From Mycolicibacterium porcinum (GTDB lineage: Bacteria; Actinomycetota; Actinomycetes; Mycobacteriales; Mycobacteriaceae), in NCBI GenBank assembly GCA_001942045.1, contig MSTD01000009.1:44923-91415 (forward strand): 46,493 nucleotides of DNA, in the 5' to 3' direction. This document shows, one piece after another, positions 21,811 through 44,422 of the stretch; position 1 is the stretch's first letter; each line of letters starts with the position of its first letter. The notes beneath the pieces are model-generated. The model was not told the DNA's origin and did no database searches. It saw only the letters and a list, made by a program, of their open reading frames with translations. A program made the position numbers and the translations under genes.

Positions 21811-22212
21811 CTAACCCGGCGCGTTGGTGAACCAGAGGTTCTCCTCACGGAGGCTGCGGCTGCGCCAGCCGTCGGGTGTGCGCACCAGTTCGTGGTGGTA
21901 ATACCCGCCGCATGCACTCATCTCCGCCATCCCCGGCAACTGCATGGGGTTGTAGAACATCGCCCGCACCGTCGCGGTCTCCCCGTCGGTGTCCAAGATC
22001 TCGACGTTGGTGATGTAGTGCATGCTCCACGGGATCACCCCGAAGTTGGCGGCGAACCAGTCGACCACCTCGTCACGTGTCCCCACCACAGCGCCAGCCG
22101 AGGAGTAGTCGATGACGGCGTCCTCGGTGAACACCGACCGGTACAGCTCCCAGTCCTTGGAGTCGACGGCCCGGGCATAGCGATACAGCAGGGCCGCGAT
22201 CTCGTCGGTCAC
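21811..22212 (-). CDS. SnoaL/NTF2-like protein
   Basis: A 133-residue protein with the cone-shaped SnoaL-like fold. The pattern EIAALLYRYARAVDSKDWELYRSVF, FTEDAVIDYSSAGAVVGTRDEV and SMHYITNVEILDTDGETATVRA (in part) is typical. Members are ketosteroid-isomerase-like enzymes, dehydratases, hydroxylases or binding proteins, often in steroid, polyketide or terpenoid pathways. Its GTG start overlaps the aldehyde dehydrogenase stop by 4 bases, so the two are translationally coupled and probably act on the same pathway. The exact reaction cannot be told. Confidence 0.82.
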   Translation of the reverse strand: MTDEIAALLYRYARAVDSKDWELYRSVFTEDAVIDYSSAGAVVGTRDEVVDWFAANFGVIPWSMHYITNVEILDTDGETATVRAMFYNPMQLPGMAEMSACGGYYHHELVRTPDGWRSRSLREENLWFTNAPG

Positions 22213-23693
22213 TCCGGCATTCCGATGGTCTTGGACTCGAAGTACTCCTTGAACCCTTCCTCGCCGTTGCGCCGGCCCAGGCCGCTCTGCTTGGAGCCGC
22301 CGAAGGGGCTGTTGATGCCGAAGTGGCTGCGGCTGTTGATGGTCACGTTGCCGGTCCGGATGCGTCGGGCGATGGCGAAGGCCCGGTCCACGTCGCCGGA
22401 CGAAACCTCCCCGGACAGACCGTAAATGGAGTTGTTGGCGATGGCTACCGCTTCGTCATCAGAGTCGTACGGGGTGACCGTCAGCACGGGGCCGAAGATC
22501 TCCTCCTGCGCGACCTGCGAATCGGGGTCGACGTCGGCGAGCAGGGTGGGCTGGGTGAAGTAACCCGTCGGCAGGTTCTCTGGAACACCGCCGCCGGTGA
22601 CCAGCCGGGCGCCCGAATCGATGCCGGATTTGATGAGCCCGAGCACCTTGTCGCGCTGGGTGGCGCTGATCTGCGGGCCCTGCATGATGCCCGGAGTCCA
22701 TGGATCGCCGACCGGGAAGTTCTCCATCGCGCCCTTGAGGAGCTCGATGCCCTCGTCGTAACGGCTGCGGGGGAGCAGGATGCGGCTGGGCAGGATGCAG
22801 GACTGCCCGCTCATGACGCACGCCATCATCGCCGCGATGGGCAGCGCCGAGTTGAAGTCGGCATCGTCGAGCACGATGTGGGCGGACTTGCCGCCCAGCT
22901 CGAGCATGGTCTTTTTGACCGTGGAGGCGCCGGCAGCCAGGATGGCCCGCCCCGTCGCCGTCGACCCGGTAAACGTGATCATGTCGACGCGCGGATCGGC
23001 CGACAGCGCGGCGCCGACCTCGTTGGCATTGGACACCACGACGTTGAACACGCCGGCCGGGATGTCCGTGTGCTCCGCGACGATGCGGCCCAACTCGGTG
23101 CCCGACCACGGGGTGAGCTGGGCGGGCTTGAGCACCACGGTGTTGCCGGCCATCAGGGCCGGCACCGTCTCGGCGATGTTGAGGTAGAACGGCACGTTCC
23201 ACGGGGTGATCGCGCCGACCACACCGACCGGCTCGTAGGCGATCTTGCGCCGCGCCGGGCCCAGCTGGGTCTGGTGAACGCCGTTGTCGACGACGTAGTC
23301 GAAGTTCTTCCCATGCTCTGCCCAGTGTTTGACCTCGCCGATCGGATCCTCGATCTGTGAGCCCGTCACCGTCACCGGGCAGCCGACCTCGGTGACCAGG
23401 ATGCGGCGCAGCCGCTCCTTCTCGGCCTCCAGCGCATCGTGCAGCTGCATCAGGCAGTGGTAGCGGAACTCGACGTCGCGGCTCCAGTCGGTTTCGTCGA
23501 AGGCGCGTCGGGCCGCGCCGACGGCACGCTCGACGTCGGCCACCGTGCCGTCGGTCGCCTGGCCGGCCACCTGCTCGCTGGCGGGGTGGATCACGTCGAA
23601 TTTCGCACCGCTGCCGGTGTATTGGAGTTCGCCGTCGATCAGCATCCGCTCGTCACCGGCGAGCACGCCAGTGTCGCTCTGCACCTGAGTCAT
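22209..23693 (-). CDS. NAD(P)-dependent aldehyde dehydrogenase
   Basis: A 494-residue aldehyde dehydrogenase that oxidises aldehydes to acids. Catalytic residues are visible: N166 in TPWNVPF, E265 in ELGGK and C299 in SGQSC, with the cofactor motif FTGSTATG at 241-248. The ATG at 23693 lies 10 bases from the conserved TTTACA dyad, with no room for a good ribosome site, so it may be leaderless. The frame continues upstream to 23729, but that would run through the dyad. It is the first gene of a two-gene operon with the SnoaL protein and resembles the mycobacterial AldA-type enzymes near P450 genes. Confidence 0.93.
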   Translation of the reverse strand: MTQVQSDTGVLAGDERMLIDGELQYTGSGAKFDVIHPASEQVAGQATDGTVADVERAVGAARRAFDETDWSRDVEFRYHCLMQLHDALEAEKERLRRILVTEVGCPVTVTGSQIEDPIGEVKHWAEHGKNFDYVVDNGVHQTQLGPARRKIAYEPVGVVGAITPWNVPFYLNIAETVPALMAGNTVVLKPAQLTPWSGTELGRIVAEHTDIPAGVFNVVVSNANEVGAALSADPRVDMITFTGSTATGRAILAAGASTVKKTMLELGGKSAHIVLDDADFNSALPIAAMMACVMSGQSCILPSRILLPRSRYDEGIELLKGAMENFPVGDPWTPGIMQGPQISATQRDKVLGLIKSGIDSGARLVTGGGVPENLPTGYFTQPTLLADVDPDSQVAQEEIFGPVLTVTPYDSDDEAVAIANNSIYGLSGEVSSGDVDRAFAIARRIRTGNVTINSRSHFGINSPFGGSKQSGLGRRNGEEGFKEYFESKTIGMPE

Positions 23694-23703
23694 AGCAGAC
23701 AGC

Positions 23704-23729
23704 TTTACAAAAATTACGTGTCGTGTCAC
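23704..23729. promoter_or_regulatory. Conserved dyad, copy A (upstream of aldehyde dehydrogenase)
   Basis: TTTACA (23704-23709), 14 bases, then TGTCAC (23724-23729). The same layout is found at 25578, 29596, 33176 and 42865. On the minus strand it reads GTGACA...TGTAAA, ending 10 bases before the aldehyde dehydrogenase ATG. It is a probable TetR operator overlapping the promoter. Confidence 0.7.
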
Positions 23730-23758
23730 CCCTTTGACGAAAGGATTGACCGGTCGAT

Positions 23759-23828: not shown

Positions 23829-24386
23829 TCAGTTCGCGTCGGGCTGTTTGATACCGACGGCGTGGCGCAGCTGTGCCAGGAACTGATCCCCGTCATCGCT
23901 GCGCACGATGTAGTGCGAGACGGCGACACGGATCGCGGTGGCGGCCTTGACGGGGGCGTTGGCACCCGACAGGAGCTTGAGCAGCCGGGCCCGCATCAGC
24001 GGGATCACGTTGGCCAGCTGGGCGATCACGACCTCGGGCTCGATGTCGACCAGCCGGACCCCGGAATATGACTGCTGATATTGCACGATGAAACGCAATG
24101 CGGCGTCGAGTTTCTCGGTGCCCCGCAGGCCGACGGTGGCGCGGCTGATGCCTTGGTCGAACATCTCGCGCTCATAGGTGCCGAAGGCGTCGAGCAATTC
24201 CTGTTTGTCGGCGAACCAGCGGTACAGCGTGGGCCGGGATACCCCGGCCTGCAGCGCCACCTCGGACAGGCTCAGCTTGGTCTGGCCGCTGCGGGCCAGC
24301 ACCTCGGCCGTCGCTACCAGGATTCGGTGCCGCGTCGAGGTGTCTTCGACTGATGCTTCCCGCTGCGCGGGTACAGGTTCATTCAC
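23829..24386 (-). CDS. TetR-family regulator 1
   Basis: A 185-residue TetR protein. Residues 18-68 form the DNA-binding domain, with TKLSLSEVALQAGVSRPTL followed by YRWFA as the helix-turn-helix. The ligand domain includes YQQSYSGVRLVDIEPEVVI. It is a clear paralogue of the regulator at 29053-29586: the 24 residues from TKLSLS to YRWFA are identical, so both should read the same operator. It starts at a GTG, 43 bases after the APH-like gene and on the same strand, so it probably shares the dyad-E promoter and regulates itself. It likely represses the five dyad-bearing promoters until a pathway metabolite binds. Confidence 0.9.
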   Translation of the reverse strand: MNEPVPAQREASVEDTSTRHRILVATAEVLARSGQTKLSLSEVALQAGVSRPTLYRWFADKQELLDAFGTYEREMFDQGISRATVGLRGTEKLDAALRFIVQYQQSYSGVRLVDIEPEVVIAQLANVIPLMRARLLKLLSGANAPVKAATAIRVAVSHYIVRSDDGDQFLAQLRHAVGIKQPDAN

Positions 24387-24429: not shown

Positions 24430-25569
24430 TCACAGCAACTTCTTGAGTATTGCCACAGTCTCGAGGTCGGCCAAAGCCGCCACACCCCGTCTCGCGCCTT
24501 CGAGTGCGATGCCTTCGTCCTGCATGCCGCCCAGCCCGGCGGTGATCACGGGTGCGGCGTACGCATAGATCGCGCCGAGGCGATAGCGCTCCCACAACTC
24601 GTCGTGATCGAGAGCCGGCCCGCCGGCCGCGGCCAGTGCGCGCCGGTATTCGTCGAGCAGGTCACGCTCAGCGGCTTGCCGGTCGGCCGTGGTCATGCAG
24701 GTGACCAGGGTGTATGCCAGTTCCCGGCCCGGATGGCCGCGGCGGACGGCCTGCCAGTCGAGCAGGCCCGCCTCGCCATTGCGGAAGAAGAGATTGCCCG
24801 GATGTGCGTCACCGTGCATCACGGTGTGCGGCGGACGGTCCAGCAGCTGGGCCGCCGCCCGGTAGTTCTCGTCGATTAACCGGCCGTCGGCCACCGGGAT
24901 GTCGGTGTTCTCGGCGAGTCTCTTGGTCGACAGCTTGAGCAGGGAGCCGGTCATCAACGAGGTGTGGTCGCCCGACGCCGAGTACAGCCAGCCGAGCGGC
25001 CCGCTGCCGCTGCCGGCCGGCAGCCTGCCCCAGAATGCCGCGTGTACCCGGGCCAGCAGCTCCACCGTCATGGCAGCCCGGTCCTTGTCCAGCGGGTGCA
25101 GGGTGTCCGGGAACTCGCAGGGACTCAGTGCCAGGTCTTCCAGTACCAGCACGTAGCGCCCGGTGAGGGCGTCGAAGGCCGCGCCGTAGGCGCGGGGAAC
25201 ACCCGGTAGGCCTGCGGCCAGTTGTTGGTAGAAACGGACCTCGGTGTGGCCCAGCCGGCCCAACTCGCCCATCATCCGGGTGGCGGCCGTCTCGGAGGGC
25301 ATCTTGACGAAGACGGATTCCGGCACGTCGGCTCCCGAGAGCGCCAGCCGCGCACGGGACGACGTGCCCGCGTCGCCGCCCATGACCGACACCGATTCGA
25401 CCCGGCGCCCGGTCAGCTCGGACAGGTACGCCGCGTCCAGGTCGGCGATGCGGCGGGGCAGTGAGCGCATGCGCCCGATGGCGGCATCGGTTGCGATACG
25501 TTGCACCCCGTGGCCGATGTGCGCGGCCAGACCGGCGACGGGGATGAGGCTGCGGGCCGGTGCGAGCAT
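24430..25569 (-). CDS. APH-like small-molecule phosphotransferase
   Basis: A 379-residue protein of the aminoglycoside/choline/ecdysteroid kinase superfamily. VMHGDAHPGNLFF holds the catalytic base D254 and Mg-binding N259, LLDWQ holds D271 (equivalent to the DFG aspartate), and K89 in VFVKM is the likely ATP lysine. Similar proteins in actinobacterial lipid or steroid clusters are of unknown function and may phosphorylate an alcohol intermediate. The ATG at 25569 is 8 bases from the dyad, with TAAACT as a -10 and no ribosome site, so the transcript is probably leaderless. It is divergent from the CoA-transferase. Confidence 0.82.
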   Translation of the reverse strand: MLAPARSLIPVAGLAAHIGHGVQRIATDAAIGRMRSLPRRIADLDAAYLSELTGRRVESVSVMGGDAGTSSRARLALSGADVPESVFVKMPSETAATRMMGELGRLGHTEVRFYQQLAAGLPGVPRAYGAAFDALTGRYVLVLEDLALSPCEFPDTLHPLDKDRAAMTVELLARVHAAFWGRLPAGSGSGPLGWLYSASGDHTSLMTGSLLKLSTKRLAENTDIPVADGRLIDENYRAAAQLLDRPPHTVMHGDAHPGNLFFRNGEAGLLDWQAVRRGHPGRELAYTLVTCMTTADRQAAERDLLDEYRRALAAAGGPALDHDELWERYRLGAIYAYAAPVITAGLGGMQDEGIALEGARRGVAALADLETVAILKKLL

Positions 25570-25577: not shown

Positions 25578-25603
25578 TTTACAAATCTTCGACTGATTGT
25601 AAA
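25578..25603. promoter_or_regulatory. Conserved dyad, copy E (between APH-like kinase and CoA-transferase)
   Basis: This is the most symmetric copy: TTTACAA (25578-25584) and TTGTAAA (25597-25603) are perfect 7-bp arms. The 55-base gap between two divergent starts holds little else. For the minus strand it also supplies TTTACA-N16-TAAACT as a plausible promoter ending 6 bases before the APH ATG. Confidence 0.72.
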
Positions 25604-25624: not shown

Positions 25625-26803
25625 ATGGCGGGTCCGTTGGAGGGCTTTCGGGTCGTCGAGTTGGGTGTCTGGGTTGCCGCGCCGGCGGCCGGAGCGCTCC
25701 TGGCCGACTGGGGCGCCGATGTCGTCAAGATCGAACCACCCTCGGGCGATCCGGCGAGAACCTTCGGCCGGATGCTCGGCCTGGATCCAGACCTGGGCGT
25801 GGCGGCCAACCCGCCATTCGAGATGGACAACCGGTCCAAACGCAGCATCGTGCTCGACCTCGGTACCGCCGAGGGGCGGGCGATTGCGATCGAATTGCTC
25901 TCCACCGCAGACGTTTTCCTGACAAATGTGCGCCCTGCCGCGTTGCGACGGCTGGAACTGGACTTCGAGACCGTGGCGGCCCGCAATCCGCGCCTGGTGT
26001 ACGGGTTGATCACCGGATACGGATTGACCGGACCGGAGGCGGACCGCGCGGCGTACGACGTCGCCGCCTTCTGGGCCCGTGCCGGGCTCGCCGATCTGCT
26101 GACCCGGCCCGGAGATACCCCGCCGTTCCAGCGCGGCGGGATGGGGGACCACTCCGCGGGCATGACGCTGGCGGCTGCGGTGTGCGCTGCGCTGCTGGCC
26201 AGAAACCGCACCGGGACAGGACAGTTGGTCAGTACCTCGCTCTATCGCCAGGGCGCCTACACCGTCAGCTTCGATCTCAACACCGCACTGATGAGCGGTG
26301 AGCAGATCGCGATCGGCCAGCGCGAGGCGATGGCCAACCCCTGCATGAACAACTACGCGACCGGTGACGGGAAACGGTTCTGGATCGTCGGACTGCAAGG
26401 GGACCGGCACTGGCCGGCGCTGTGCCGGGTGGTGGACCGCGAAGACTGGCTGACCGACCCGCGTTTCGCCACCGCGCGTGACCGGTACGTCAACGCCCGC
26501 GAGCTGATCGCCGAGCTCGATGCCATCTTCGTCGGACATTCCCTAGAGCACTGGGCTGTTGTGTTCGACGCGGAGCCCGACTTCTTCTGGTCGCCGATCA
26601 ACAGCCTCGACGATGTGATCGCCGACGAGCAGTTCCACGCCGCGGGCGGCATTGTCGAAGTGCCCGATGGGATTTCGACGGTGCCGATGGTGGCCAGTCC
26701 GGCCGATTTCTCGGCCACTCCGTGGCAGCCGCGCATGGTTGCCCCGGCGCTCGGCGCGCATACCGATGAGATCCTGGCCGAGCTGCGCGGTCAGGACCGC
26801 TGA
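25625..26803 (+). CDS. CaiB/BaiF-type (class III) CoA-transferase
   Basis: A 392-residue class III CoA-transferase that moves CoA between acids via an aspartyl-CoA intermediate. D175 in GGMGDHSAGM is the catalytic aspartate. The N-terminal LEGFRVVELGVWVAAPAAG and WGADVVKIEPPSGDPAR (in part) are family landmarks. In this cluster it probably activates a carboxylic acid, perhaps the aldehyde dehydrogenase product, for beta-oxidation. The ATG at 25625 is the natural start; the frame is open far upstream but antisense to the APH gene. The 3' end overlaps the convergent glucosidase gene by 13 bases. Confidence 0.9.
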   Translation: MAGPLEGFRVVELGVWVAAPAAGALLADWGADVVKIEPPSGDPARTFGRMLGLDPDLGVAANPPFEMDNRSKRSIVLDLGTAEGRAIAIELLSTADVFLTNVRPAALRRLELDFETVAARNPRLVYGLITGYGLTGPEADRAAYDVAAFWARAGLADLLTRPGDTPPFQRGGMGDHSAGMTLAAAVCAALLARNRTGTGQLVSTSLYRQGAYTVSFDLNTALMSGEQIAIGQREAMANPCMNNYATGDGKRFWIVGLQGDRHWPALCRVVDREDWLTDPRFATARDRYVNARELIAELDAIFVGHSLEHWAVVFDAEPDFFWSPINSLDDVIADEQFHAAGGIVEVPDGISTVPMVASPADFSATPWQPRMVAPALGAHTDEILAELRGQDR

Positions 26804-29016
26804 GCGTTGATGTCTGCGAGTAGTTCATCGAGCTGCTCGCGGGTCACCTTGCCCGCCGAGAAGGCGGCCATCCGACCGATCGGCACCGATTCCAGCATCC
26901 GCAACAGATTGGTGCCGAGTGCGGATACGCCTGTGCCGAACGGGGAAGCGTTACTCAGCACCGTTGCGATCGTCTGTGCGGCCACCGGATCGGCGAGCAG
27001 CTCACCCAGTGTAGATTCGCGAGTGAACGGCTGCGTCGGCTCCTCGCCGGCCACCGTCACCGTCGTTGACAATCGCAGGTCCCGGCTCGACGCGCCGACC
27101 GACACCTCGTACTCGCCGGGCTCGACGACCCACCGCCCGGAATCCGTGCTCCAGTACGCGAGATCGTTTCGGTCGATCGGGATTTCGACGGTCTGTCCGT
27201 GGCCGGGTTCGAGCGTCACCGAAGTGAATCCGGCCAGCCAGCGGACCGGTCTGCCGACGCGGGAGTCGGGTAGTCCGGTGTAGACCTGCACCACCTCACG
27301 ACCTGACCGGGCACCGGTGTTGGTCACCGTCAGCCGCACGGACAGCCCCGCGTCGCCGGAGCTGACCGTCAGGTCGGAGTACTCGAACCGGGTATACGAC
27401 AGGCCGTGGCCGAACGGAAACGCCACCGGCAGATCCCGGGTGTCGTACCAGCGGTAGCCGACGAAGATCCGCTCGCCGTACCCGGTGTGGCCCGATTCAG
27501 ACGGAAAGTTGAGGTAGGCCGGGCAATCCTGCAGCCTCAGCGGCACCGTCTCGGCCAGCCGGCCCGACGGATTGACGACGCCGAACAGCACGTCGGCCAG
27601 CGCGCCGCCCCCGGCCTGTCCGAGCAGGGCACCGTCCACCACGGCAGTGGCCAGCCCGGCAACGGCGTCGAGACGCACCACGCCGCCGTGGGACAGCACG
27701 GCGACCGTGCGGGGCTGGGCGTCGACCACCTCGCGCAGCAGTTCGAGGTGGGCTGGGGGCAGGTCGATGTGCTCGCGGTCGTAGCCCTCGGACTCCTCTT
27801 CGGCGGTGAGACCGAGGAATACGATTGCGGCGTCGGCGGATTCGGCGGCGGCCACCGCAGCCGCGATATCGCTTCCCGAGCAGTAGTTCACCGGCTGATC
27901 GCCCGCGAGTTCGCGGATCTTGTCCAGCGGAATGTCGAGGCGGGTCGGGTTCACATGGGAGCTGCCGCCACCCTGATAGCGGGGCTCCTGGGCGAAACCG
28001 CCGATGACCGCCAGCGGTGATTGGGACAGTGGTAGCAGGTCGCCGTCGTTCTTCAGCAGCACGATCGCCCGCTGCGCCGCCTCGCGGGCCAGATCGTGGT
28101 GGGCATCGATGTCGAATGATGCAGCGGTGGAACCGGTTTGGGTGACCCGCTGGGTGAGCCGAATGACGCGCTCCGCGGCGCGAGCGACGGCATCGGCGCC
28201 CAGGTGCCCGGCGTGCACTGCGCTCACCACCTCGGCATCGGAGACACCGCCGGTCGTCGGCATCTCCAGGTCCAGGCCCGCGTCCACCGCGGCGACCCGG
28301 TCTGCCACCGCGCCCCAGTCGCTGACCACCACGCCGTCGAAACCCCATTCGTCGCGCAGCACTGTGGTCAGCAGCCACGGGTTCTCCGAGGCATAGACCC
28401 CGTTGATCCGGTTGTAGGAACACATCACCGTCCAGGGCTGGGCCTGGCGCACCACGATCTCGAACGTGCGCAGATAGATCTCACGCAACGTGCGGGCGTC
28501 GACGTCGGAACTGGCGCGCATCCGGTCGTGCTCGGCGTTGTTCACCGCGAAATGTTTGAGCGACGCGCCGACACCACGACTCTGCACCCCGCGAACCCAC
28601 GCCGCGCCCAGCATTCCGGACAGCAGCGGATCCTCCGAGTAGTACTCGAAGTTGCGCCCGCACCGCGGGTCACGCTTGATGTTGACTCCCGGGCCCAGCA
28701 GCACATGCACGCCAAGGGCGCGACTTTCGTCGCCGAGTGCCTGGCCGACCCGCTCCACCAGCGCGGGATCCCAGGTCTGGCTGAGCCCGGCCGCAGGGGG
28801 AAAGCAGGTCGCCGGTTCGCTGGCCGAGAGTCCCAGATGATCTGTGGCGCTGCCGGATTGCCTGCGTACCCCGTGTGGGCCGTCGGTCAGCACGATCGAA
28901 GGCACGGGCCCGACCGCCTTGGTGGTCCAGAAGCTCGCGCCGCTGCCGAGCGCGGCCTGATCAGTCAGGTCCAGCCCGGCAACGGGATCAGCGGCGGGAT
29001 CAGCTGAGTCGCTCAC
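26791..29016 (-). CDS. Glycoside hydrolase family 3 beta-glucosidase-like enzyme
   Basis: A 741-residue GH3 enzyme. The catalytic nucleophile is D233 in VVVSDWGA, and substrate-binding motifs LTDGPHGVR, GPGVNIKRDPRCGRNFEYYSEDP (in part), KHFAVNN and MCSYNRING are present. The second GH3 domain follows, then an FnIII-like domain (about residues 570-650) and an 80-residue C-terminal extension after EEPTQPF. No signal peptide is seen, so an intracellular role is likely, for example removing glucose from an imported or conjugated compound. It starts at a GTG 36 bases after TetR-2 and on the same strand, so it falls under dyad B. Confidence 0.92.
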   Translation of the reverse strand: MSDSADPAADPVAGLDLTDQAALGSGASFWTTKAVGPVPSIVLTDGPHGVRRQSGSATDHLGLSASEPATCFPPAAGLSQTWDPALVERVGQALGDESRALGVHVLLGPGVNIKRDPRCGRNFEYYSEDPLLSGMLGAAWVRGVQSRGVGASLKHFAVNNAEHDRMRASSDVDARTLREIYLRTFEIVVRQAQPWTVMCSYNRINGVYASENPWLLTTVLRDEWGFDGVVVSDWGAVADRVAAVDAGLDLEMPTTGGVSDAEVVSAVHAGHLGADAVARAAERVIRLTQRVTQTGSTAASFDIDAHHDLAREAAQRAIVLLKNDGDLLPLSQSPLAVIGGFAQEPRYQGGGSSHVNPTRLDIPLDKIRELAGDQPVNYCSGSDIAAAVAAAESADAAIVFLGLTAEEESEGYDREHIDLPPAHLELLREVVDAQPRTVAVLSHGGVVRLDAVAGLATAVVDGALLGQAGGGALADVLFGVVNPSGRLAETVPLRLQDCPAYLNFPSESGHTGYGERIFVGYRWYDTRDLPVAFPFGHGLSYTRFEYSDLTVSSGDAGLSVRLTVTNTGARSGREVVQVYTGLPDSRVGRPVRWLAGFTSVTLEPGHGQTVEIPIDRNDLAYWSTDSGRWVVEPGEYEVSVGASSRDLRLSTTVTVAGEEPTQPFTRESTLGELLADPVAAQTIATVLSNASPFGTGVSALGTNLLRMLESVPIGRMAAFSAGKVTREQLDELLADINAQRS

Positions 29017-29052: not shown

Positions 29053-29586
29053 TCAGTGATGTTTCGCCCGGGCCGCATGGCGTAGCTGTGCCAGGAAGTC
29101 GTCGGCGTCGTCGCCCCGCACCAGATAGTGGCAGACGGCCACCCGAACCGCGGTGGCCGCGGCGATGTCGGCATCCGGTCCGGTGGTGAGGCGTTGCAGG
29201 CGTTCTCGCATGAGCGGGATCACCTGGGCGAGTCGCTTGATGACGTGTTCGGGTTCGATGTCGACCATGCGCAGTCCCGGGTAGGACTGTTGGTATTCGA
29301 CGACCGTGCGAAGCGCGGCGTCCAGGTGTTCGTCGTCGGGCAGGTCGGTGGTGGCCTGGGCCACGGCCTGTTCGTAGTGCTTGCGCTCCCACACCACGAA
29401 GGCATCGAGCAGCTCCTGCTTGGAGGCGAACCAGCGGTACAGCGTCGGGCGGGAGACACCGGCCTGCAGTGCGACCTCGGACAGGCTGAGTTTGGTCATG
29501 CCGCTGGCGCCGAGCACCTCGGCGGTGGCGGCCAGGATCCGTCCGCGGGTACTGCCGCCGTCATCAATGGACGCGATTTCCGCCAT
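29053..29586 (-). CDS. TetR-family regulator 2
   Basis: A 177-residue TetR protein paralogous to the one at 23829-24386. The helix-turn-helix is identical over 24 residues (here residues 31-54), and the ligand domain is also related (VEYQQSYPGLRMVDIEPEHVI). It starts at the ATG at 29586, nine bases beyond the conserved dyad, so it is probably autoregulated and leaderless. The frame remains open upstream through the P450 gene, but that is antisense noise. It is divergent from the P450-ferredoxin genes and precedes the GH3 gene. Confidence 0.9.
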   Translation of the reverse strand: MAEIASIDDGGSTRGRILAATAEVLGASGMTKLSLSEVALQAGVSRPTLYRWFASKQELLDAFVVWERKHYEQAVAQATTDLPDDEHLDAALRTVVEYQQSYPGLRMVDIEPEHVIKRLAQVIPLMRERLQRLTTGPDADIAAATAVRVAVCHYLVRGDDADDFLAQLRHAARAKHH

Positions 29587-29595: not shown

Positions 29596-29621
29596 TTTAC
29601 AAACTATCGATGAACTGTCAC
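29596..29621. promoter_or_regulatory. Conserved dyad, copy B (between TetR-2 and P450-1)
   Basis: TTTACA (29596-29601), 14 bases, TGTCAC (29616-29621), extended to AGCTTTACA...TGTCACGCT. It faces TetR-2 on the left and P450-1 on the right. Confidence 0.72.
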
Positions 29622-29673: not shown

Positions 29674-30930
29674 GTGACAGTTGCCAGCTCGACGCAGGCA
29701 CGCGAATACAGCCCATTCGACATCACATCGCACGAATTCTGGAGCCGGCCGTTCGCCGAGCGTGACGAGACGTTCGCGCAGCTGCGCGCCGGTGAAGGCC
29801 TGAGCTGGCATCAGCCGCTGTCGACACTGTTCGACGTGGAAGAGCCGGGCTTCTGGGCCATCACGCGTCGTGCCGACATCCAGTTCGTCAGCCAGCATCC
29901 CGAGCTGTTCACCTCGACCCAGGGCGTCGCGCTCGATCCGATGCCGGCCGACGTGCAGAAATTCGCGACGTTCTTCCTGATGATGGATCCGCCCGAACAC
30001 ACCACCTACCGCCGACTGATCAGCTCGGCGTTCACCCCGCGCAATGTGCGCAAGATCGAAGAGCAGATACACCGCAACGCCGTCGCCATTGTCGATGACC
30101 TGATCGGCGCGGGCGACGTCGACTTCGTCGAGGCCTGCTCGGCGAAGCTGCCGATGCGCACGATCTCCGACATGCTCGGAGTACCCACCGCCGATCAGCC
30201 GGCCCTGGCCAAGGCTGCCGAAAAGTTGTTCAGCATGAGCGATGACGAGTACTCGTCGCTCGAAGAACGAGCCATGGCCACGATCAACGAGATCATGCTG
30301 ATCTCTAACACCGGAGTGGAGCTGGCCAAGTTCCGGCGAGCCAATCCCGGTGACGACCTGATGACGAGCATCGTCAACGCCGAGGTGGACGGCCACCGGC
30401 TCACTGACGAAGAAATCGGGGCTTTCCTGATCCTGCTGGCCTCGGCGGGCAACGACACCACCAAGCAGACCACCACCCACGCGATGATGGCGCTGGCGGC
30501 CAACCCGGACCAAAAGGAATGGCTGCTGGAGGATTTCGACAACCGGATCGGCCTGGCCACCGAGGAGTTCGTACGGTGGGCCACGCCGGTGATCCAGTTC
30601 GCCCGATTCGCGACCGCGGACGTCGAGGTGGCCGGCCAGCCGATCCGCGCCGGTGACAAGGTGGGGCTGTTCTACTGCTCGGGCAATCGCGACGAGTCGG
30701 TGTTCACCGACCCGCAACGGTTCGATCTCAGCCGCTCACCCAACCCGCAGATCGGTTTCGGCGGCGGCGGTCCGCACTTCTGCCTGGGTAACCAGCTGGC
30801 CAAGACCGAGCTGCGACACCTGTTCCGCGAGTTGCTGACTCGGCTGAAGAATGTCGAATTCGGTGAGCCCGAACTGCTGTACAGCAGCTTCGTGCACGGC
30901 ATCAAGCGCGTGCCCGCTCACATCGCATAG
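29674..30930 (+). CDS. Cytochrome P450 monooxygenase 1 (CYP124/125/142-like group)
   Basis: A 418-residue soluble bacterial P450. The I-helix oxygen-activation motif is AGNDTT (258-263), the ExxR pair is E298/R301 and the haem ligand is C370 in FGGGGPHFCLG. The sequence character (FLMMDPPEHTTYRRLISSAFTP, LASAGNDTTKQT) resembles mycobacterial CYP124/125/142-type enzymes, which hydroxylate methyl-branched lipid or sterol side chains; this is a resemblance, not an assignment. The GTG at 29674 has CAGGAGGG at 29660-29667. The ferredoxin encoded 10 bases downstream is its probable electron donor. It is under dyad B. Confidence 0.93.
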   Translation: MTVASSTQAREYSPFDITSHEFWSRPFAERDETFAQLRAGEGLSWHQPLSTLFDVEEPGFWAITRRADIQFVSQHPELFTSTQGVALDPMPADVQKFATFFLMMDPPEHTTYRRLISSAFTPRNVRKIEEQIHRNAVAIVDDLIGAGDVDFVEACSAKLPMRTISDMLGVPTADQPALAKAAEKLFSMSDDEYSSLEERAMATINEIMLISNTGVELAKFRRANPGDDLMTSIVNAEVDGHRLTDEEIGAFLILLASAGNDTTKQTTTHAMMALAANPDQKEWLLEDFDNRIGLATEEFVRWATPVIQFARFATADVEVAGQPIRAGDKVGLFYCSGNRDESVFTDPQRFDLSRSPNPQIGFGGGGPHFCLGNQLAKTELRHLFRELLTRLKNVEFGEPELLYSSFVHGIKRVPAHIA

Positions 30931-31132: not shown

Positions 31133-31136
31133 AGGT

Positions 31137-31250
31137 TCAGGCCGCCGCCACCAGCACCCGGCCCGGACCGCGCACCGCCAACTCAATGGAGTGGTCGCCT
31201 CGGTCGACGCGTTGCCCGACATGGCCGACGCCGTTGGAGGAAGCCCTCAC
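31137..31250 (-). pseudogene. C-terminal remnant of an unidentified gene
   Basis: The minus strand reads SNGVGHVGQRVDRGDHSIEL followed by AVRGPGRVLVAAA and a stop, with strongly G/C-biased third codon positions like real genes here. Upstream in the same frame the similarity fades at about 31250 and a stop codon comes soon after (TAA near 31275). It looks like the last 35 or so codons of a protein whose body has been lost, perhaps by the event that left the adjacent transposase-like fragment. I do not recognise the family. A very small intact gene starting at the GTG at 31250 is possible but unlikely. Confidence 0.45.
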
Positions 31251-36151: not shown

Positions 36152-36930
36152 CCCCGAGCAGACTGCAGGACGCGCTGGCCGCCAACACCCAGATCTGGGG
36201 CGGCTGGGTGGTCGGCCCGACGATCCTCGGTCCCGAGGAGTTCGCGGCGGCCGGATACCACTACGTCGGATTCGACGTCCAGCATGGATATCTCGACGAC
36301 GCGGACGTGGCGCTGCTGTTGCGTCGGCTCGAGCACGTGCCGATCGCCACTGCGGTGCGGCTGCCCTCGGCGGACCCCGCACCGATCGGCCGGGTGCTCG
36401 ATGCCGGCGCTGACGCGGTGATCATCGCCATGGTGGAATCTGCCGCGCGGGCCGCCGCCGCAGTCGCGGCCACCCGGTACGCCCCGGCAGGCATCCGCAG
36501 TTTCGGACCGCTACGGGCCGGGCTCGGACACAATACCGTCGAGCTCGAAGCGCGGGTGAGTGTGTTCGCGATGATCGAGACGGCGCGTGGCGTGGCGGCG
36601 GCCGACGAGATCTGTGCAGTGCCGGGTCTCGCCGGGATCTACGTCGGCCCAGCTGATCTCGCCATCTCGATGGGTTACCAGCTCCCCGACGCCTGGACTC
36701 ATCCCGAGGTGCGGGCGGCGATGGTAAAGATCCAGGGCGCTGCCCGCGCGGCCGGGCTCATTTGCGGAATCCACGCCGGTGCAGGGAAGCTCGGAAAAGT
36801 GGGGTCCGACTTGGGTTTCCAGATGATCACGCTGGCCTCGGAATCCCAGGCATTGCGCCGCGGTGCCGTCGAGCACCTGAACGAGGCCACCGGAAACGCG
36901 GCCGGCACCGAACGAGGAGGCTACAACTGA
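36148..36930 (+). CDS. HpcH/HpaI-family aldolase
   Basis: A 260-residue class II aldolase-like protein of the HpcH/HpaI family. GWVVGPTILGPEEFAAAGYHYVGFDVQHG (in part) holds the catalytic His, VFAMIETARGVAAADEI carries the metal-binding Glu and GIYVGPADLAISMG the metal-binding Asp. These enzymes cleave 2-keto-4-hydroxy acids to pyruvate (or a keto acid) and an aldehyde. In this operon it could perform a late carbon-carbon cleavage. It is coupled to both neighbours by 4-base overlaps. Confidence 0.9.
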   Translation: MTPSRLQDALAANTQIWGGWVVGPTILGPEEFAAAGYHYVGFDVQHGYLDDADVALLLRRLEHVPIATAVRLPSADPAPIGRVLDAGADAVIIAMVESAARAAAAVAATRYAPAGIRSFGPLRAGLGHNTVELEARVSVFAMIETARGVAAADEICAVPGLAGIYVGPADLAISMGYQLPDAWTHPEVRAAMVKIQGAARAAGLICGIHAGAGKLGKVGSDLGFQMITLASESQALRRGAVEHLNEATGNAAGTERGGYN

Positions 36931-37670
36931 ACGCAGGAGCAAGGCCGGGCAGCCGTGTCGCCCTGGTGACCGGCGCAGCCCGGGGCCAGGGTGCGGCCAT
37001 CGTGCGCCGACTGGTGGCCGATGGCTACCGGGTGACCGCAGCGGATCTGCTGGAAGACGAACTGACCGACAGCACAGCGGAATTCGGTGACCAGGTGCTG
37101 GCCGTGCGGCTGGACGTCACCTCGGCCGAGCAGTGGCAGGCCGCGGTGGGGGCAACGGTGAACCAATTCGGTGGGCTCAACGCACTGGTCAACAATGCCG
37201 GTGTGCTGCACCGGGCGTCGATCGCCGAGGAAACGCCGGCCGGGTTCGAAGGTTCGTGGCGGGTCAACTGTCTGGGCCCGTTTCTCGGCCTGCAAGCCGC
37301 CCTTGAACCGCTGCGTCAGGCCGAGGGCGCCGCGGTGGTGAACACCTGCAGCACCGGCGCGGTGCGCCCGTTCCCGAATCACGCGGCGTACGGCTCGTCC
37401 AAGTGGGCGCTGCGCGGGCTCACCCAACTGGCAGCCGCCGAACTGGGCCGTGACGGCATCCGGGTCAACGCGGTGTTCCCCGGCCCCGTCGAAACACCGA
37501 TGCTCGACGAGTCGACCCAGGCCCGACTGGCCGACCGCGCCACCCTGGGCCGATTGGGCAAGCCGACCGAAATCGCCGATGCGGTGGCGTTTCTGCTGTC
37601 GAACCAGGCCACGTTCATCACCGGATCCGAACTGCTCGTCGACGGCGGCCAATGTCTGCAGATCGGATGA
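36927..37670 (+). CDS. Short-chain dehydrogenase/reductase, probable CTG start
   Basis: A classical SDR of about 247 residues. TGAARGQG (15-22) binds the cofactor, NNAG is at 89-92, and the catalytic S142, Y155 and K159 are in place. The C-terminal FITGSELLVDGGQC is typical of 3-alpha/20-beta-hydroxysteroid-dehydrogenase-like members. The only sensible start is a CTG at 36927, six bases after AGGAGG and overlapping the aldolase stop as CTGA. No ATG, GTG or TTG exists in frame between 36762 and the cofactor motif that would give a normal N-terminus. It probably interconverts an alcohol and the ketone used by the next enzyme. Confidence 0.88.
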   Translation: MNAGARPGSRVALVTGAARGQGAAIVRRLVADGYRVTAADLLEDELTDSTAEFGDQVLAVRLDVTSAEQWQAAVGATVNQFGGLNALVNNAGVLHRASIAEETPAGFEGSWRVNCLGPFLGLQAALEPLRQAEGAAVVNTCSTGAVRPFPNHAAYGSSKWALRGLTQLAAAELGRDGIRVNAVFPGPVETPMLDESTQARLADRATLGRLGKPTEIADAVAFLLSNQATFITGSELLVDGGQCLQIG

Positions 37671-39187
37671 CGCGGGTGCCCAGCTTCAAACCATCAGTCG
37701 GAATCATCGGCGCCGGGCCGGGCGGACTGGCCCTCGGAATCTTCCTGAGGAAGGCAGGTTTCGACGATTTCACCATCTTCGACCGCGAGGATGGTGTGGG
37801 CGGAACCTGGCGGATCAACACCTACCCGGGCCTGGCCTGCGACGTGAAGTCGCACCTGTACTCCTACTCGTTCGACCTCAACCCCAACTGGAGCCGGCTG
37901 TGGGCCGGGCAGCCGGAAATCCTCGAGTACTTCGAGCGATGCGCCGAACGCTATCGGCTGGGCCCACATCTGCGGCTGAACACCGAGATCACGGCGGCGC
38001 GATGGGACGCCGACGCCAACAACTGGGTACTGACCACCAGGTCCGGTGCGCAACACCGTTTTGACGTCGTGGTCTCGGCGATCGGCCTGTTCACCCAGCC
38101 GCTGCAACCGGACCTGGTGACCGAGGAACCGTTCATCGGCACCCTCATGCACACCGCCAACTGGGACCACAACGTCGACCTCGAGGGTGCGCGCGTTGCC
38201 GTCCTCGGAACGGGATCAACTGCCTCCCAAGTGGTTCCGGAGATTGCGAAGGTCGCGGAGAAGGTGTACTCGGTCCAGCGTTCGGCGACCTGGGTGCTGC
38301 CGAAACCCGATCGTCCGTACACCGAGCGGGAGCGCTGGCTGTTTGCCCACGTGCCGTTCGCGAAGAAGATCTACCGGACCCGGCTCTGGCTGCGCAGTGA
38401 ATCCAACATCGCCGTCATCGAGAACGGCAGCGACAAGACTCAGGAGTTCAAGGCGCTCGCGCTTGACCTCCTCGAATCCACTGTGGCCGACGAGGAACTG
38501 CGGGCCCGGCTCACCCCGGACCATCCACTGGGGTGCAAGCGGCTGGTGTTCTCGCCGGATTTCATCTCAACCTTGACCCGTCCCAACGTCGAGGTGGTGT
38601 CCAGCCCGGCGCGTGCGTTGCGGGCCCGGTCACTGGTCACCGAGGACGGCCGGGAGCTCGACGTCGACGTCGTGGTGTGCGCCACCGGCTATGCCGCCGC
38701 CGACTACCTCGGGCAGATCGAGGTGACCGGTGAAGACGGGGTGTCCTTGCGCGACACCTGGAGCGACGGGGCGTTCGCCTACCTGGGAATGGCGGTGCCG
38801 GGCTTCCCCAACTTCTTCATGCTCTACGGGCCCAACACCAATGTCGGCTCCAACAGCGTCATCTTCATCCTGGAGGCCCAGGCCCGCTACGTGGTGCGGG
38901 CGCTGAAATACCTTCGGCGCAAACGCAAATCCTATGCGGCGGTGCGCCCGGGCGCCATGGCCGCGTTTCTCGCCGACATCGACCGGTGGATGCAGGGCAC
39001 GGTGTGGCTGACGCGGTGCAGCAGCTACTTTCGGGCACCCAGCGGCCGGGTGGTCACCCAATGGCCGCGCAGTGCTCGCGCCTTCTGGTCGATGACCCGA
39101 CGGTTCCGCCCCGCGGACTACACTTTCGAACCGCCCACCAAACACCCGGCCCGGGTCACCGCGGCCGCCGATCGGACGGACGGCTGA
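37667..39187 (+). CDS. Flavin-containing Baeyer-Villiger-type monooxygenase
   Basis: A 506-residue FAD/NADPH monooxygenase. GAGPGG (15-20) binds FAD, GTGSTA (181-186) binds NADPH and FIGTLMHTANWD (156-167) matches the Baeyer-Villiger fingerprint FxGxxxHTxxW(P/D). The GxWRxxxYPGxxxD region near residue 46 also fits. Such enzymes insert oxygen next to a ketone to give an ester or lactone. The ATG at 37667 overlaps the SDR stop as ATGA; an ATG at 37652 is possible. The SDR upstream could supply the ketone, and the hydrolase downstream could cleave the ester. Confidence 0.92.
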   Translation: MTRVPSFKPSVGIIGAGPGGLALGIFLRKAGFDDFTIFDREDGVGGTWRINTYPGLACDVKSHLYSYSFDLNPNWSRLWAGQPEILEYFERCAERYRLGPHLRLNTEITAARWDADANNWVLTTRSGAQHRFDVVVSAIGLFTQPLQPDLVTEEPFIGTLMHTANWDHNVDLEGARVAVLGTGSTASQVVPEIAKVAEKVYSVQRSATWVLPKPDRPYTERERWLFAHVPFAKKIYRTRLWLRSESNIAVIENGSDKTQEFKALALDLLESTVADEELRARLTPDHPLGCKRLVFSPDFISTLTRPNVEVVSSPARALRARSLVTEDGRELDVDVVVCATGYAAADYLGQIEVTGEDGVSLRDTWSDGAFAYLGMAVPGFPNFFMLYGPNTNVGSNSVIFILEAQARYVVRALKYLRRKRKSYAAVRPGAMAAFLADIDRWMQGTVWLTRCSSYFRAPSGRVVTQWPRSARAFWSMTRRFRPADYTFEPPTKHPARVTAAADRTDG

Positions 39188-39190
39188 GCC

Positions 39191-40114
39191 ATGGCCTGGC
39201 TGGAGCGCCTCGACCCCGGATTGCGTGGGTTTGCCGAGGCCCGCACCGATCTGTCCACCGCTCAGTTGGGTGCGGCGCGCACCTCGCTCGATCAGCGTCG
39301 CCGGGACGCCGCGCAGGTTCTGGACACGCCCGGAGTGGAGATCGTCGGGGCCCGCGTGGCGCTCGGGCGACGCACCATCGGAGTGCGGATCTACCGCGGT
39401 GGGCCGTCGCCGTCGCCCGCGGTGGTCTACTGCCACTCGGGTGCCTTCGTGCTGGGCAACCTCGACACCGACCAGATCCAATGTGTGGAGCTGGCCCGGC
39501 GGGCCCGGTGCACGGTGATTTCGATGGACTACCGGCTGGCGCCCGAGTATCCCTATCCGGCCGCTTTCGACGACGCGATGGTGGTGCTCAACTGGGCGGC
39601 CACCCTGGCGGGCGAGCTCGATATCGACGCAGGCCGCATCGCGGTGGCAGGCAACAGCGCAGGCGGCGCGCTGGCCGCGCTGCTGGCGCAGCACGCCGCG
39701 GCGGGCTCCGCGCCACCGATCGTGTTCCAGGCGCTGCACCAGCCGGTGCTCGACGACCGGCCCACCCGGTCGAAGGAGGAGTTCGCCGACACCCCGGGGT
39801 TCGACGGTCCGGCGACCGTCGCGATGTGGCGGCACTATGCCGGCGGCCGCAACGTCCCGGAGGCGGCGGTGCCGGCCCGGGCCGCCACGCTGACCGGTGT
39901 GGCGCCGGCCCTGATCACCTGCTCGGAGCTCGATCCGCTGCGTGACGAGGCTCTCGATTACGCGCGTCGGCTGTTGGCCGAGGGCATTGCCACAGAGCTG
40001 CATCTCATCCCCGGGACGTGCCACGGCTTCGATTCGCTGGTGCCGGAGTGGGAGGTCAGCCAGCAACTTTTTGCCCTACAGGGCGCGGCGCTGCGCCGTG
40101 CGCTGCACGGTTGA
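39191..40114 (+). CDS. Alpha/beta hydrolase, hormone-sensitive-lipase family
   Basis: A 307-residue esterase of the HSL (family IV) group. The oxyanion motif HGGG is replaced by YCHSGAFVLG. The catalytic residues are S156 in GNSAGG, D248 in CSELDPLRDEA and H278 in GTCHGF. YRLAPEYPYPAAFDD is the classic post-strand motif. It starts 3 bases after the monooxygenase gene and ends the operon. The pairing with a Baeyer-Villiger enzyme strongly suggests that it hydrolyses the ester or lactone product. Confidence 0.92.
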   Translation: MAWLERLDPGLRGFAEARTDLSTAQLGAARTSLDQRRRDAAQVLDTPGVEIVGARVALGRRTIGVRIYRGGPSPSPAVVYCHSGAFVLGNLDTDQIQCVELARRARCTVISMDYRLAPEYPYPAAFDDAMVVLNWAATLAGELDIDAGRIAVAGNSAGGALAALLAQHAAAGSAPPIVFQALHQPVLDDRPTRSKEEFADTPGFDGPATVAMWRHYAGGRNVPEAAVPARAATLTGVAPALITCSELDPLRDEALDYARRLLAEGIATELHLIPGTCHGFDSLVPEWEVSQQLFALQGAALRRALHG

Positions 40115-42057: not shown

Positions 42058-42765
42058 TCAGAGTGCGCAACCGCACGTGTCCGATGTCCCGGATGAGGGG
42101 AGCTCGGCAAGCACGTCGACGCGGGTGCCGTCGAAGCTGAGGAGCCCCTGGATCGGCAGGGACTCGGGCGGGGTGTCGGGGTAGCTCCACGCCACATCGG
42201 CGATGACGACGTCGCCGATGACCGCCGACCAGTAGGTGGCCGTGCCCTTGTAGTTGCAGTACGACGTGGTCTGGCTGGGCTGCAGGAGATCGGTGCGAAC
42301 GCGGGCGGGGTCCACGTAGAGGCGTGGCTCCAGTGCTGTTTCGAACACGATCACGGTTTCGTCGGTGTCGACCAGGACGGTGTCGGCGGCGCTCACCCGC
42401 AAGCCGCGCCGCGTTGGGCGGCAGTCGATCCGGTGGTAGGGGTTGGGCGGATAGTGCACCAGCTTTCGGCCCTCTTCGAACCACGAATCGACGGCATCCC
42501 AGGGCACCGCGGCGTAACCCGGCGCCTCGGCTACCGGCTCGTGTGGAAGGTCGTCGAGCTCATCGGCGGGGAATGCGTAACTGAGCGGATGGCCCGCGCG
42601 GTGCACCATCAGGGCGTGTTCGGTGTCGAGCACTGCGACACCACCGCGGAACGCCTGGATGCGGCGGGGATGCGGCTCGATGTAGACCGTGCCCGCAGCC
42701 AGCGCGGGAGTGAACCAACCGGCCGGTTGTGTACTCAACGGTCCGCGTCCTGCGACGAGACTCAT
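42058..42765 (-). CDS. DUF427-domain protein (tandem)
   Basis: A 235-residue protein of two related halves. The first (GTVYIEPHPRRIQAFRGGVAVLDT) and the second (RLYVDPARVRTDLLQPSQTTSYCNYKGTATYWS, in part) show the DUF427 pattern, where a ligand-strand region is followed by the TYCPYKG-type motif, here SYCNYKG. The function of DUF427 is unknown. It ends CGCAL, a cysteine pair that may bind metal or form a disulfide. It is divergent from the 42972 gene across the region holding dyad D, which may control it too. Confidence 0.8.
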   Translation of the reverse strand: MSLVAGRGPLSTQPAGWFTPALAAGTVYIEPHPRRIQAFRGGVAVLDTEHALMVHRAGHPLSYAFPADELDDLPHEPVAEAPGYAAVPWDAVDSWFEEGRKLVHYPPNPYHRIDCRPTRRGLRVSAADTVLVDTDETVIVFETALEPRLYVDPARVRTDLLQPSQTTSYCNYKGTATYWSAVIGDVVIADVAWSYPDTPPESLPIQGLLSFDGTRVDVLAELPSSGTSDTCGCAL

Positions 42766-42864: not shown

Positions 42865-42890
42865 TTTACAGATTCTCTTGAGAATGTCAC
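42865..42890. promoter_or_regulatory. Conserved dyad, copy D (upstream of the 42972 thioesterase operon)
   Basis: TTTACA (42865-42870), 14 bases, TGTCAC (42885-42890), in the longer AGCTTTACA...TGTCACGCT form. Inside it is a perfect ATTCTC-TT-GAGAAT palindrome (42872-42885). It lies in the 206-base gap between the divergent DUF427 and 42972 genes. Confidence 0.72.
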
Positions 42891-42971
42891 GCTGTTGGGT
42901 GAGGCGGGCCACACCGCAACACCCTGTCGAGAGCGCCGGCCGATCAGGCCTTGGACCGGATTGGATGCCTT

Positions 42972-43556
42972 ATGTCCCCACAGTCAGGAATGTCCGCGCA
43001 GTTGTCCGAGGCACGCGGCGGCGCCGCGCTCGCCGTCCCGTTCGCCCCGCCGCGGGTCCGCCCCGAGAAAACGTTGCAGTATGAGCTGAAGGTGGTGGCA
43101 GGCGATGTCGCCGACGTGGTGTCGGGCATCGGTGGATGGCTGTTCGACCGGGCAATGGCAGGCTGGCGGGTCAGCGTTGCCGCCGACGAGGTGGGCGATG
43201 AGCGTGCACTACGCATCCTCGGATTGAAAGCCGTTGGCCTGAGCGGGCTATGGCGATCGACGGATCCGGATGCCGTCGTGATGACGGCCATCGGCAGCTC
43301 CCGCTTCGAGTCGGCAGACCATGGGCTTGCCGTGCACAATCCCGGTGGCGAGGTGACTTTCTTCGGTTCGCGCGCCCCCGACGGATTCGCGGGACGCATC
43401 GAGCGGGTTCAGTACCGGCCGAGCGCGGCGGCACTGGCCTTCAAAGCTCATGCCCTGCCCCTTGTCGAGGCGGACCCGGGATCGGCTGACGGAGTGGAGA
43501 CGCTGTTCCGGTGCGGGCGGTCAGCGGGACTGCTCGACCTGGTCCCGGTGTGTTGA
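42972..43556 (+). CDS. Hypothetical protein upstream of thioesterase
   Basis: A 194-residue protein that I do not recognise. It has no signal peptide or membrane helix. It contains a VSGIGGWLFDRAMAGWRVSV segment and alternating hydrophobic strands, consistent with a mixed alpha/beta fold. Its base composition and codon use match its neighbours. The ATG at 42972 is assumed; ATG at 42990 or 42951 is possible, and none has a clear ribosome site. Its stop shares a base with the start of the TesB-like gene (TGATG), so the two are translationally coupled. It lies 82 bases downstream of dyad D and probably belongs to the regulon. Confidence 0.6.
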   Translation: MSPQSGMSAQLSEARGGAALAVPFAPPRVRPEKTLQYELKVVAGDVADVVSGIGGWLFDRAMAGWRVSVAADEVGDERALRILGLKAVGLSGLWRSTDPDAVVMTAIGSSRFESADHGLAVHNPGGEVTFFGSRAPDGFAGRIERVQYRPSAAALAFKAHALPLVEADPGSADGVETLFRCGRSAGLLDLVPVC

Positions 43557-44422
43557 TGCAGACGCAGGCGTCGGTCGCCGGCCTGCTGGCAGTATTCGAC
43601 GTGACGCCCGCCGGTCCGGACCGGTTCATCGGCGCGACCGGCCCGGTCGGGACTGACGGCAGGCGGGTGGCTAAAGGTGCGCAGGCACTGGGCCAGGCCC
43701 TCGTTGCGACGGCAAAGCGATTCCCGGACAAGACGATTCGGTCGGCGCACGCGGTCTTCACCCGGCCGGTCGAGATCGAATCGACAGTCGAATTGTCCGT
43801 CAGTGTGATGCACGAGGGACGCTCGACAGCGACAGCCGTGGTGGCCGTGGAGCAGGATTCACGGGTGTGCGCGACCGTGACCGTGTTGGCCGACGTGCCC
43901 TCTGGCGACGTGGTCAGCCACCACGCGCTACGGCCCGACGTCGAGACGCCAGAAGATGCGCAGCCGGCCGGGCCGGCCATGGCCGGCCACGAGTTGCGTC
44001 TCGTCGACGTGGTCGATGTCAACAGCCCCGACGAGGTGGGGCCGCCCGAACTCTATGCCTGGCTGCGCTACGACCCGATCCCGGAACGAGACGACCTGGC
44101 CAAGGCGCTGCTGGCGTATTTCACCGGGCAACTCGGCATCTCGACCACGATGCGACCGCATCGCGGTGTCGGTACCGCGCAGGCGCACACGACGGTGTCG
44201 ACGGCCCTGATGTCGACGTCGGTCAGCTTCCACGAGGCCGTCGAGTGGGACGGCTGGCTGCTTTACAGCCATGAGAGCACTGCGGCCGGACAGGGGATGT
44301 CGTATGTCCGCGGTCAGGTGCACACCGAAGACGGCGAGCTGCTGGCGTCATTCGCGCAGGAGGGGCTGATCCGCCCGGTGCGACCGGGGGATGCCTCGAT
44401 CGATGTGCCGGCCCGGTTGTAG
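43556..44422 (+). CDS. TesB-like acyl-CoA thioesterase
   Basis: A 288-residue double-hotdog thioesterase. The first half (RFPDKTIRSAHAVFTRPVEIES) and second half (VSFHEAVEWDGWLLYSHESTAAGQGMSYVRGQVHTEDGELLASFAQEGLIRP, in part) match TesB/acyl-CoA thioesterase II. The GQGMSYVRGQ...LLASFAQEG block is the usual C-terminal signature. It releases CoA from acyl-CoA intermediates. The ATG at 43556 overlaps the upstream stop, and the 3' end carries a hairpin terminator. Confidence 0.88.
   Translation: MQTQASVAGLLAVFDVTPAGPDRFIGATGPVGTDGRRVAKGAQALGQALVATAKRFPDKTIRSAHAVFTRPVEIESTVELSVSVMHEGRSTATAVVAVEQDSRVCATVTVLADVPSGDVVSHHALRPDVETPEDAQPAGPAMAGHELRLVDVVDVNSPDEVGPPELYAWLRYDPIPERDDLAKALLAYFTGQLGISTTMRPHRGVGTAQAHTTVSTALMSTSVSFHEAVEWDGWLLYSHESTAAGQGMSYVRGQVHTEDGELLASFAQEGLIRPVRPGDASIDVPARL

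Follow-up and report, generated by a model that had tools for sequence, protein, structure and literature searches.

The window analysed here, a 46,493-nt stretch of Mycolicibacterium porcinum DNA (contig MSTD01000009.1, positions 44,923 to 91,415 of the forward strand), carries five copies of a dyad of the form TTTACA-N14-TGTMAM. Comparison with related genomes makes us fairly confident that this dyad is the operator of a mycobacterial TetR subfamily that includes two proteins encoded in the window, TetR1 and TetR2, and that it controls a catabolic regulon of cytochrome P450, Baeyer-Villiger-like and coenzyme A (CoA) enzymes, comprising some 20 genes together with one or more remote units. 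The dyads very probably mark one jointly controlled set of breakdown enzymes. A first-pass annotation of this DNA, made from its letters alone, had proposed that one shared operator ties these scattered genes into one system, and the spacing of the half-sites, the promoters of orthologous genes and the co-occurrence with TetR proteins all lend support to that proposal. What the compared genomes show directly is the dyad with its spacing, how well it is conserved, that it co-occurs with the TetR subfamily and that it follows a gene which has moved.

Within the window the pattern (M is A or C) occurs at 23704–23729, 25578–25603, 29596–29621, 33176–33201 and 42865–42890 (dyads 1 to 5), exactly at the five places originally listed. 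Allowing two mismatches adds no new place, only opposite-strand readings of the same five, which bears out the annotation's impression that the window holds no other copy. The exact pattern gave 0 matches in 100 dinucleotide shuffles of the window, and five of the six TTTACA hexamers on its plus strand belong to dyads. The flanks are also as described: AGC precedes TTTACA at 23704, 29596 and 42865, and GCT follows TGTCAC at 29596, 33176 and 42865. Since AGC and GCT are reverse complements of each other, the flanks appear to be part of the dyad.

For four of the five copies, the distance to one start codon is 8 to 11 bp. Dyad 1 is 10 bp upstream of an aldehyde dehydrogenase (ALDH) gene; dyad 2, which has the form TTTACA-N14-TGTAAA, lies between a kinase gene (8 bp) and a family III CoA-transferase gene, CaiB (21 bp); dyad 3 separates TetR2, whose ATG is 9 bp away, from the cytochrome P450 gene P450a (52 bp); and dyad 4 lies between an SMP-30-like gene (11 bp to its ATG) and a NIPSNAP-like gene (39 bp to its ATG). 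The GTG starts proposed by our gene caller would instead put dyads 5 bp from SMP-30 and 3 bp from TetR2. The fifth copy is more distant: it lies 99 bp from the start of a DUF427 gene and, depending on which start is used, 60 to 99 bp from a hypothetical gene that precedes a thioesterase gene. The annotation had placed all five copies between genes, which holds if NIPSNAP starts at the ATG at 33241; with the caller's GTG at 33195, the gene and dyad 4 would have 7 bases in common. Dyad 1 faces only the ALDH–SnoaL pair, with no plus-strand gene start within 300 bp on its other side.

The distance between the half-sites is nearly invariant. In 59 mycobacterial loci (1.05 Mb), fetched by their TetR2 relative, the generalised pattern KTKACA-N-TGTMAM (K is G or T) has 158 matches with a spacing of 14, and only 6 when all remaining spacings between 2 and 29, 27 in number, are taken together. 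Because a search with the full pattern would be circular here, we also picked ortholog promoters without requiring it: 31 for ALDH, 20 for TetR2, 41 for SMP-30 and 36 for the kinase. The TGTAAA half was present in 22/31, 18/20, 32/41 and 25/36 of them, and in all 97 of these TGTAAA-bearing promoters a second half with at most one mismatch lies at exactly 14 bases; the same promoters contain nine further second halves, at spacings of 6, 7, 8 or 20. At ALDH, TetR2 and SMP-30 it is the TGTAAA half that is turned toward the gene. Among 106 distinct asymmetric sites from the window and its relatives, the three bases before the core are A in 84, G in 94 and C in 88 percent, and those after it are G in 98, C in 53 and T in 68 percent; the site logo is conditioned on the search pattern at the 12 core positions and is informative for the flanks and inner positions only. 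Because these mirror-pair flanks are conserved, the element is about 32 bp long, with the conserved form AGC-KTKACA-N14-TGTMAM-GCT and half-sites 20 bp, or about two helical turns, apart. A palindromic class, TTTACA-N14-TGTAAA, reads identically on both strands and is represented by 27 distinct sequences (the kinase/CaiB class).

In the relatives, the dyad is found before the first genes of the proposed transcription units, whereas it is nearly absent before internal ones, a pattern that favours the shared operator of the first-pass annotation. We required 58% identity or more to a gene of the window for an ortholog, left out genes less than 160 bp from a locus end, and searched from 150 bp upstream to 40 bp inside each gene, allowing up to two mismatches unless stated otherwise. 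Gene starts came from a purpose-built codon-usage caller trained on the window genes, which mis-called some overlapping frames, so that a few sites seem to fall within a gene or to lack a neighbour. The dyad precedes 31/31 ALDH orthologs (16 exact), 19/20 TetR2 orthologs (all 19 exact), 31/35 kinase (25 exact), 35/41 SMP-30 (33 exact), 19/21 TEase2 thioesterase (18 exact), 23/30 P450a (all 23 exact), 34/48 CaiB (25 exact) and 22/35 NIPSNAP orthologs (21 exact). For the internal genes the total was 0/148: SnoaL 0/29, the GH3 glycosidase 0/18, ferredoxin 0/16, alcohol dehydrogenase 0/28, aldolase 0/21, short-chain dehydrogenase 0/16, Baeyer-Villiger-like monooxygenase 0/12 and hydrolase 0/8. Two other internal genes gave 1/34 (P450b) and 2/45 (TEase1). 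By comparison, when 3000 stretches of 190 bases were drawn at random from these loci without masking the real sites, 112 had a match with two mismatches or fewer, and 39 of 409 pooled other genes of these loci have an exact site upstream, some of them being further members or sharing a divergent promoter with one. TetR1-like genes have the dyad in 19 of 62 cases, with an exact copy in 8; the window's TetR1 follows the kinase gene, and no dyad directly precedes it.

The sites are also rare elsewhere in whole genomes. In whole-genome scans of six relatives, a loose form of the pattern has 13, 9, 8, 10, 6 and 9 sites, compared with 1, 1, 2, 4, 2 and 2 for a reversed-pattern control, and 31 of the 55 loose sites lie in this cluster, with 6 more in front of a single remote gene. 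The strict form GTGACA-N14-TGTAAA has 312 sites in 98 genomes of the genus, compared with 5 reversed-control matches. This excess over controls, with most of the relatives' sites in the cluster, points to the same shared operator. Five genomes share a loose-pattern site of a different look, ending ACTGACATGTCAA or CTACTGACATGTCAA, which is perhaps another regulator's (G001:C2:1362832, G002:C1:5574927, G003:C13:4294, G006:C5:924713 and G069:C21:75772).

The remote site recurs in all six relatives, in front of an acyl-CoA dehydrogenase gene outside the block. The regulon thus appears to reach beyond the block in which the annotation had placed it. Acyl-CoA dehydrogenases that share 67 to 76% identity with the remote protein are encoded close to the TetR gene in 17 of the 59 loci, most of them from other Mycobacterium species, and in the four loci whose gene order was checked (L024, L034, L038 and L043) the gene lies inside the cluster. 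A match is present in 71 of the 98 genomes, 30 of which were available as loci. Within 200 bp upstream, 25 of these 30 promoters have an exact dyad, one has a dyad with 1 mismatch, and four have 3 or more mismatches. Sixteen of the 25 exact dyads lie 9 or 10 bp from the start with the TGTCAC half toward the gene, six lie at 37 to 54 bp and three at 3 or 4 bp. As judged from these sequences, then, the dyad follows a gene that has moved between a remote position and the cluster, and the same start distance with either half toward the gene fits a symmetric operator rather than a fixed promoter. In L122, L132 and L136, the variant GTTACA-N14-TGTAAC lies 3 or 4 bp before the acyl-CoA dehydrogenase starts. 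In L078, L079, L082 and L083 the remote gene is followed by what we take to be a thioesterase-like gene, with a gene on the opposite strand that presumably encodes a PucR-type regulator.

The two candidate regulators are TetR1 (23829–24386, minus strand) and TetR2 (29053–29586, minus strand), both of which score above the gathering threshold for the N-terminal TetR helix-turn-helix (HTH) family (Pfam PF00440). They are paralogs with 64% identity and share an identical recognition-helix motif, GVSRPTLYRWF. TetR2, whose relatives co-occur with the dyad, is a single unit of 177 residues, 93% identical to its Mycolicibacterium septicum and M. porcinum counterparts, and is predicted to adopt an ordinary TetR fold of nine helices (mean predicted local distance difference test score, pLDDT, 83.6). 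A wide protein search with TetR2 (2067 proteins, E-values up to 0.001) returned only generic TetR/AcrR-type names, with no indication of function, among the 120 best matches.

The presence of the site tracks that of the TetR subfamily. In surveyed genomes of unstated completeness, and counting TetR2 relatives at E-values up to 1e-15, the strict site was found in 76 of 82 genus genomes with such a relative and in 0 of 16 without; in a survey of 121 genomes of the family, the figures were 9 of 10 and 1 of 111, and seven of those ten genomes are also in the genus set. The one TetR-positive family genome that has no strict site (G216) has a loose site, TTTACA-N14-TGTAAC, 2 bp from its TetR gene, and the dyad also lies 2 to 22 bp upstream of the genes for more distant TetR relatives found in other contexts (L085, 52% identical to TetR1; L057, 53%; L106, 43%). 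TetR-positive genomes have a mean of 3.8 strict sites; one genome, G073, has 18 along with four TetR relatives, a possible regulon expansion. Another, G055, has a second P450-rich island (G055:C5:1-46000, covering L103, L104 and L105) with three TetR relatives (53, 47 and 42% identical to TetR2), a kinase relative (65%), three exact dyads, and 1-mismatch variants beside two of the TetR genes.

Several observations weigh against reading the dyad as the operator of this TetR subfamily, or at least limit how far the numbers can be pressed. The 59 loci behind the spacing count were selected with TetR2 itself. The dyad is missing from 14 of 48 CaiB promoters, and an exact copy is found in only 2 of 21 DUF427 ortholog promoters (3 within one mismatch). 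The Fisher value for co-occurrence in the genus, 8e-14, is not corrected for kinship and, because the genomes are related, overstates their independence. Six of the 82 TetR-positive genus genomes lack a strict site: a search with the loose form finds no site in G084 or G090 and 2 in G032, compared with 2 for its control, and the others have 5 (G048), 3 (G069) and 3 (G076), those of G069 and G076 being of a different look. In the family draw the reversed control gave 10 matches, all in genomes without a TetR relative, compared with 41 sites, which puts a single strict site within the reach of chance; such a site occurs among unrelated genes in G212, where no TetR relative was detected. The shared recognition-helix motif may be of a type common among TetR proteins. 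Finally, the case is built from sequence comparison, and repressor binding, repression, the ligand and the pathway are put forward here as proposals.

Chance repeats were rejected as an explanation on the strength of the shuffles, the spacing specificity and the reversed-pattern controls. A more substantial alternative is that the dyad is not an operator but a core promoter, with GTGACA as the −35 and TGTAAA as the −10 element of leaderless genes. GTGACA does resemble TTGACA, and a TGTAAA half 8 to 11 bp before four start codons is a plausible leaderless geometry. We rejected this alternative, which we now regard as highly unlikely, mainly on account of the fixed spacing of 14 and the flipped orientation at the acyl-CoA dehydrogenase gene, where 16 of 25 exact dyads turn the TGTCAC half toward a start 9 or 10 bp away. 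The palindromic class is the same on both strands, the AGC and GCT flanks are a mirror pair, and a sigma-factor promoter would not be expected to disappear along with one TetR subfamily. Binding by a regulator from outside the TetR subfamily seems less probable still. One candidate would be the product of a gene near the block (19773–20624), which we take to be a LysR family member; it was rejected because its own promoter lacks the dyad in all 12 orthologs (0/12), and any non-TetR binder is hard to reconcile with dyads that precede TetR genes in several contexts and with site presence that tracks TetR presence.

The alternative closest to our own is that the dyads are real operators but that TetR1 and TetR2 respond to different ligands and control different subsets, giving two overlapping regulons. 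The 64% identity and common helix motif of the paralogs, as well as the recognisable classes into which the sites fall (such as the palindromic kinase/CaiB class), are in keeping with such a division, which we consider possible but not likely: many genomes, such as G007 with one TetR relative and three strict sites, have a single relative and several sites, implying that one protein may serve several sites.

The dyad as operator of a TetR subfamily would fit well among known systems. TetR regulons of catabolic genes are already known in mycobacteria, and the one proposed here would be a further case, with strong comparative support; KstR and KstR2 are named among such regulators in one report (PMC4482099), whose motif table also includes Rv0767c, at low significance. 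The BkaR regulon is similar: its TetR repressor is autoregulated, and a conserved palindrome lies in front of the repressor gene itself, of a divergent operon and of a few further genes (PMC3920632). Its 16-bp operator core, GTTA(N)T(N4)A(N)TAAC, differs by eye from the KTKACA/TGTMAM halves 14 bases apart seen here, and the pathway genes differ as well (PMC3920632). TetR proteins of the QacR/CgmR/Ms6564/CprB class, which bind as two dimers, typically have operators of 22 to 32 bp (PMC4150764); the conserved positions of our dyad span 32 bp, and half-sites two helical turns apart would fit two-dimer binding. The best PDB sequence match to the HTH region of TetR2 is Mce3R (9b7y), but Mce3R is a double TetR unit with a nonpalindromic operator (PMC11667970), whereas TetR2 consists of one unit and its candidate site is palindromic. 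In a Foldseek search with the TetR2 model, TetR structures were best, FasR with C20-CoA came first, and FasR and FadR-type regulators of acyl-CoA metabolism were among the nearest folds, although identity was only 14 to 24% among the best 50 alignments. Among the literature matches listed, as titles and openings of abstracts and with subscription papers mostly outside the coverage, there was no description of this motif or regulon.

We propose that a repressor bound at the dyad would sit over the start region and promoter of one gene and over the promoter of its divergent neighbour, blocking both units, and that a pathway compound, perhaps an acyl-CoA or a hydroxy acid, would bind the repressor and open all units together, the TetR genes included. 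Because TetR genes lie under the same dyads, negative feedback by autoregulation is to be expected. The genes could form one oxidative route in which the P450s with their ferredoxin, alcohol dehydrogenases, a Baeyer-Villiger-like monooxygenase, a lactonase-like protein and a hydrolase would act together with the aldehyde dehydrogenase, CoA-transferase, kinase, thioesterases and remote acyl-CoA dehydrogenase. Such a set suggests that the compound oxidised is hydrophobic and perhaps isoprenoid or cyclic. A more elaborate version, in which one operator code is common to several paralogous TetR sensors throughout mycobacteria, so that different ligands open one catabolic set, and in which that set oxidises an isoprenoid-like or cyclic compound with a hydroxyacyl-CoA phosphorylated before dehydration, is speculative and on balance improbable. 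A pairing of the kinase with the acyl-CoA dehydrogenase in the manner of ACAD10/11, which we had considered as an idea, found no support in the PDB (best E-value for the kinase 0.022; dehydrogenase nearest Tcur3483) and was rejected. Grouped by their operator, some twenty genes of unknown or guessed role become one testable unit: orphan P450s gain likely partners, and the remote acyl-CoA dehydrogenase is a partner that a reading by neighbourhood would miss. The operator could also serve to search other mycobacterial genomes for more members, and to report on the inducer.

Our count for the regulon, 18 to 22 genes compared with the 18 to 20 first suggested, depends on predicted operons. On the minus strand, dyad 1 precedes the ALDH gene (22209–23693; PF00171, resembling TIGR04284 below its cut-off) and the SnoaL-like gene (21811–22212; PF13577). 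The kinase, an APH/EcKL-type phosphotransferase (24430–25569, minus; PF01636, PF02958), is divergent from CaiB (25625–26803, plus; PF02515). Downstream of TetR2 is the GH3 glycosidase gene (26791–29016, minus; PF00933, PF01915), which may be a passenger of the regulon. P450a (29674–30930, plus; PF00067) has CYP268A2 (6bld) as its best PDB match and is followed by ferredoxin (30941–31132, plus; PF13370). TEase1, acyl-CoA thioesterase-like (31473–32294, minus; PF20789, PF13622), lies next to the SMP-30/gluconolactonase-like gene (32304–33164, minus; PF08450).

A run of seven genes on the plus strand is headed by NIPSNAP (33241–33944; PF07978) and continues with P450b (33952–35181; PF00067; best PDB match CYP130, at only 146 bits), a zinc alcohol dehydrogenase (35183–36151; PF00107), an HpcH/HpaI aldolase (36148–36930; PF03328), a short-chain dehydrogenase of uncertain start (36966–37670; NCBIfam NF005559), a flavin adenine dinucleotide (FAD) monooxygenase whose sequence suggests Baeyer-Villiger activity (37667–39187; PF00743) and an alpha/beta hydrolase (39191–40114; PF07859). 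Around the fifth dyad are the DUF427 gene (42058–42765, minus; PF04248), whose membership is doubtful, the hypothetical gene (42990–43556, plus; from the gene caller, start uncertain) and TEase2, thioesterase-like (43556–44422, plus; PF20789, PF13622). In nine of the loci from relatives, the interval between ferredoxin and TEase1 holds one more dyad, flanked by a P450 gene and a gene for a different enzyme (gene order examined in L003, 5108–8450); the counterpart interval in the window, 31133–31472, is only about 340 bp long.

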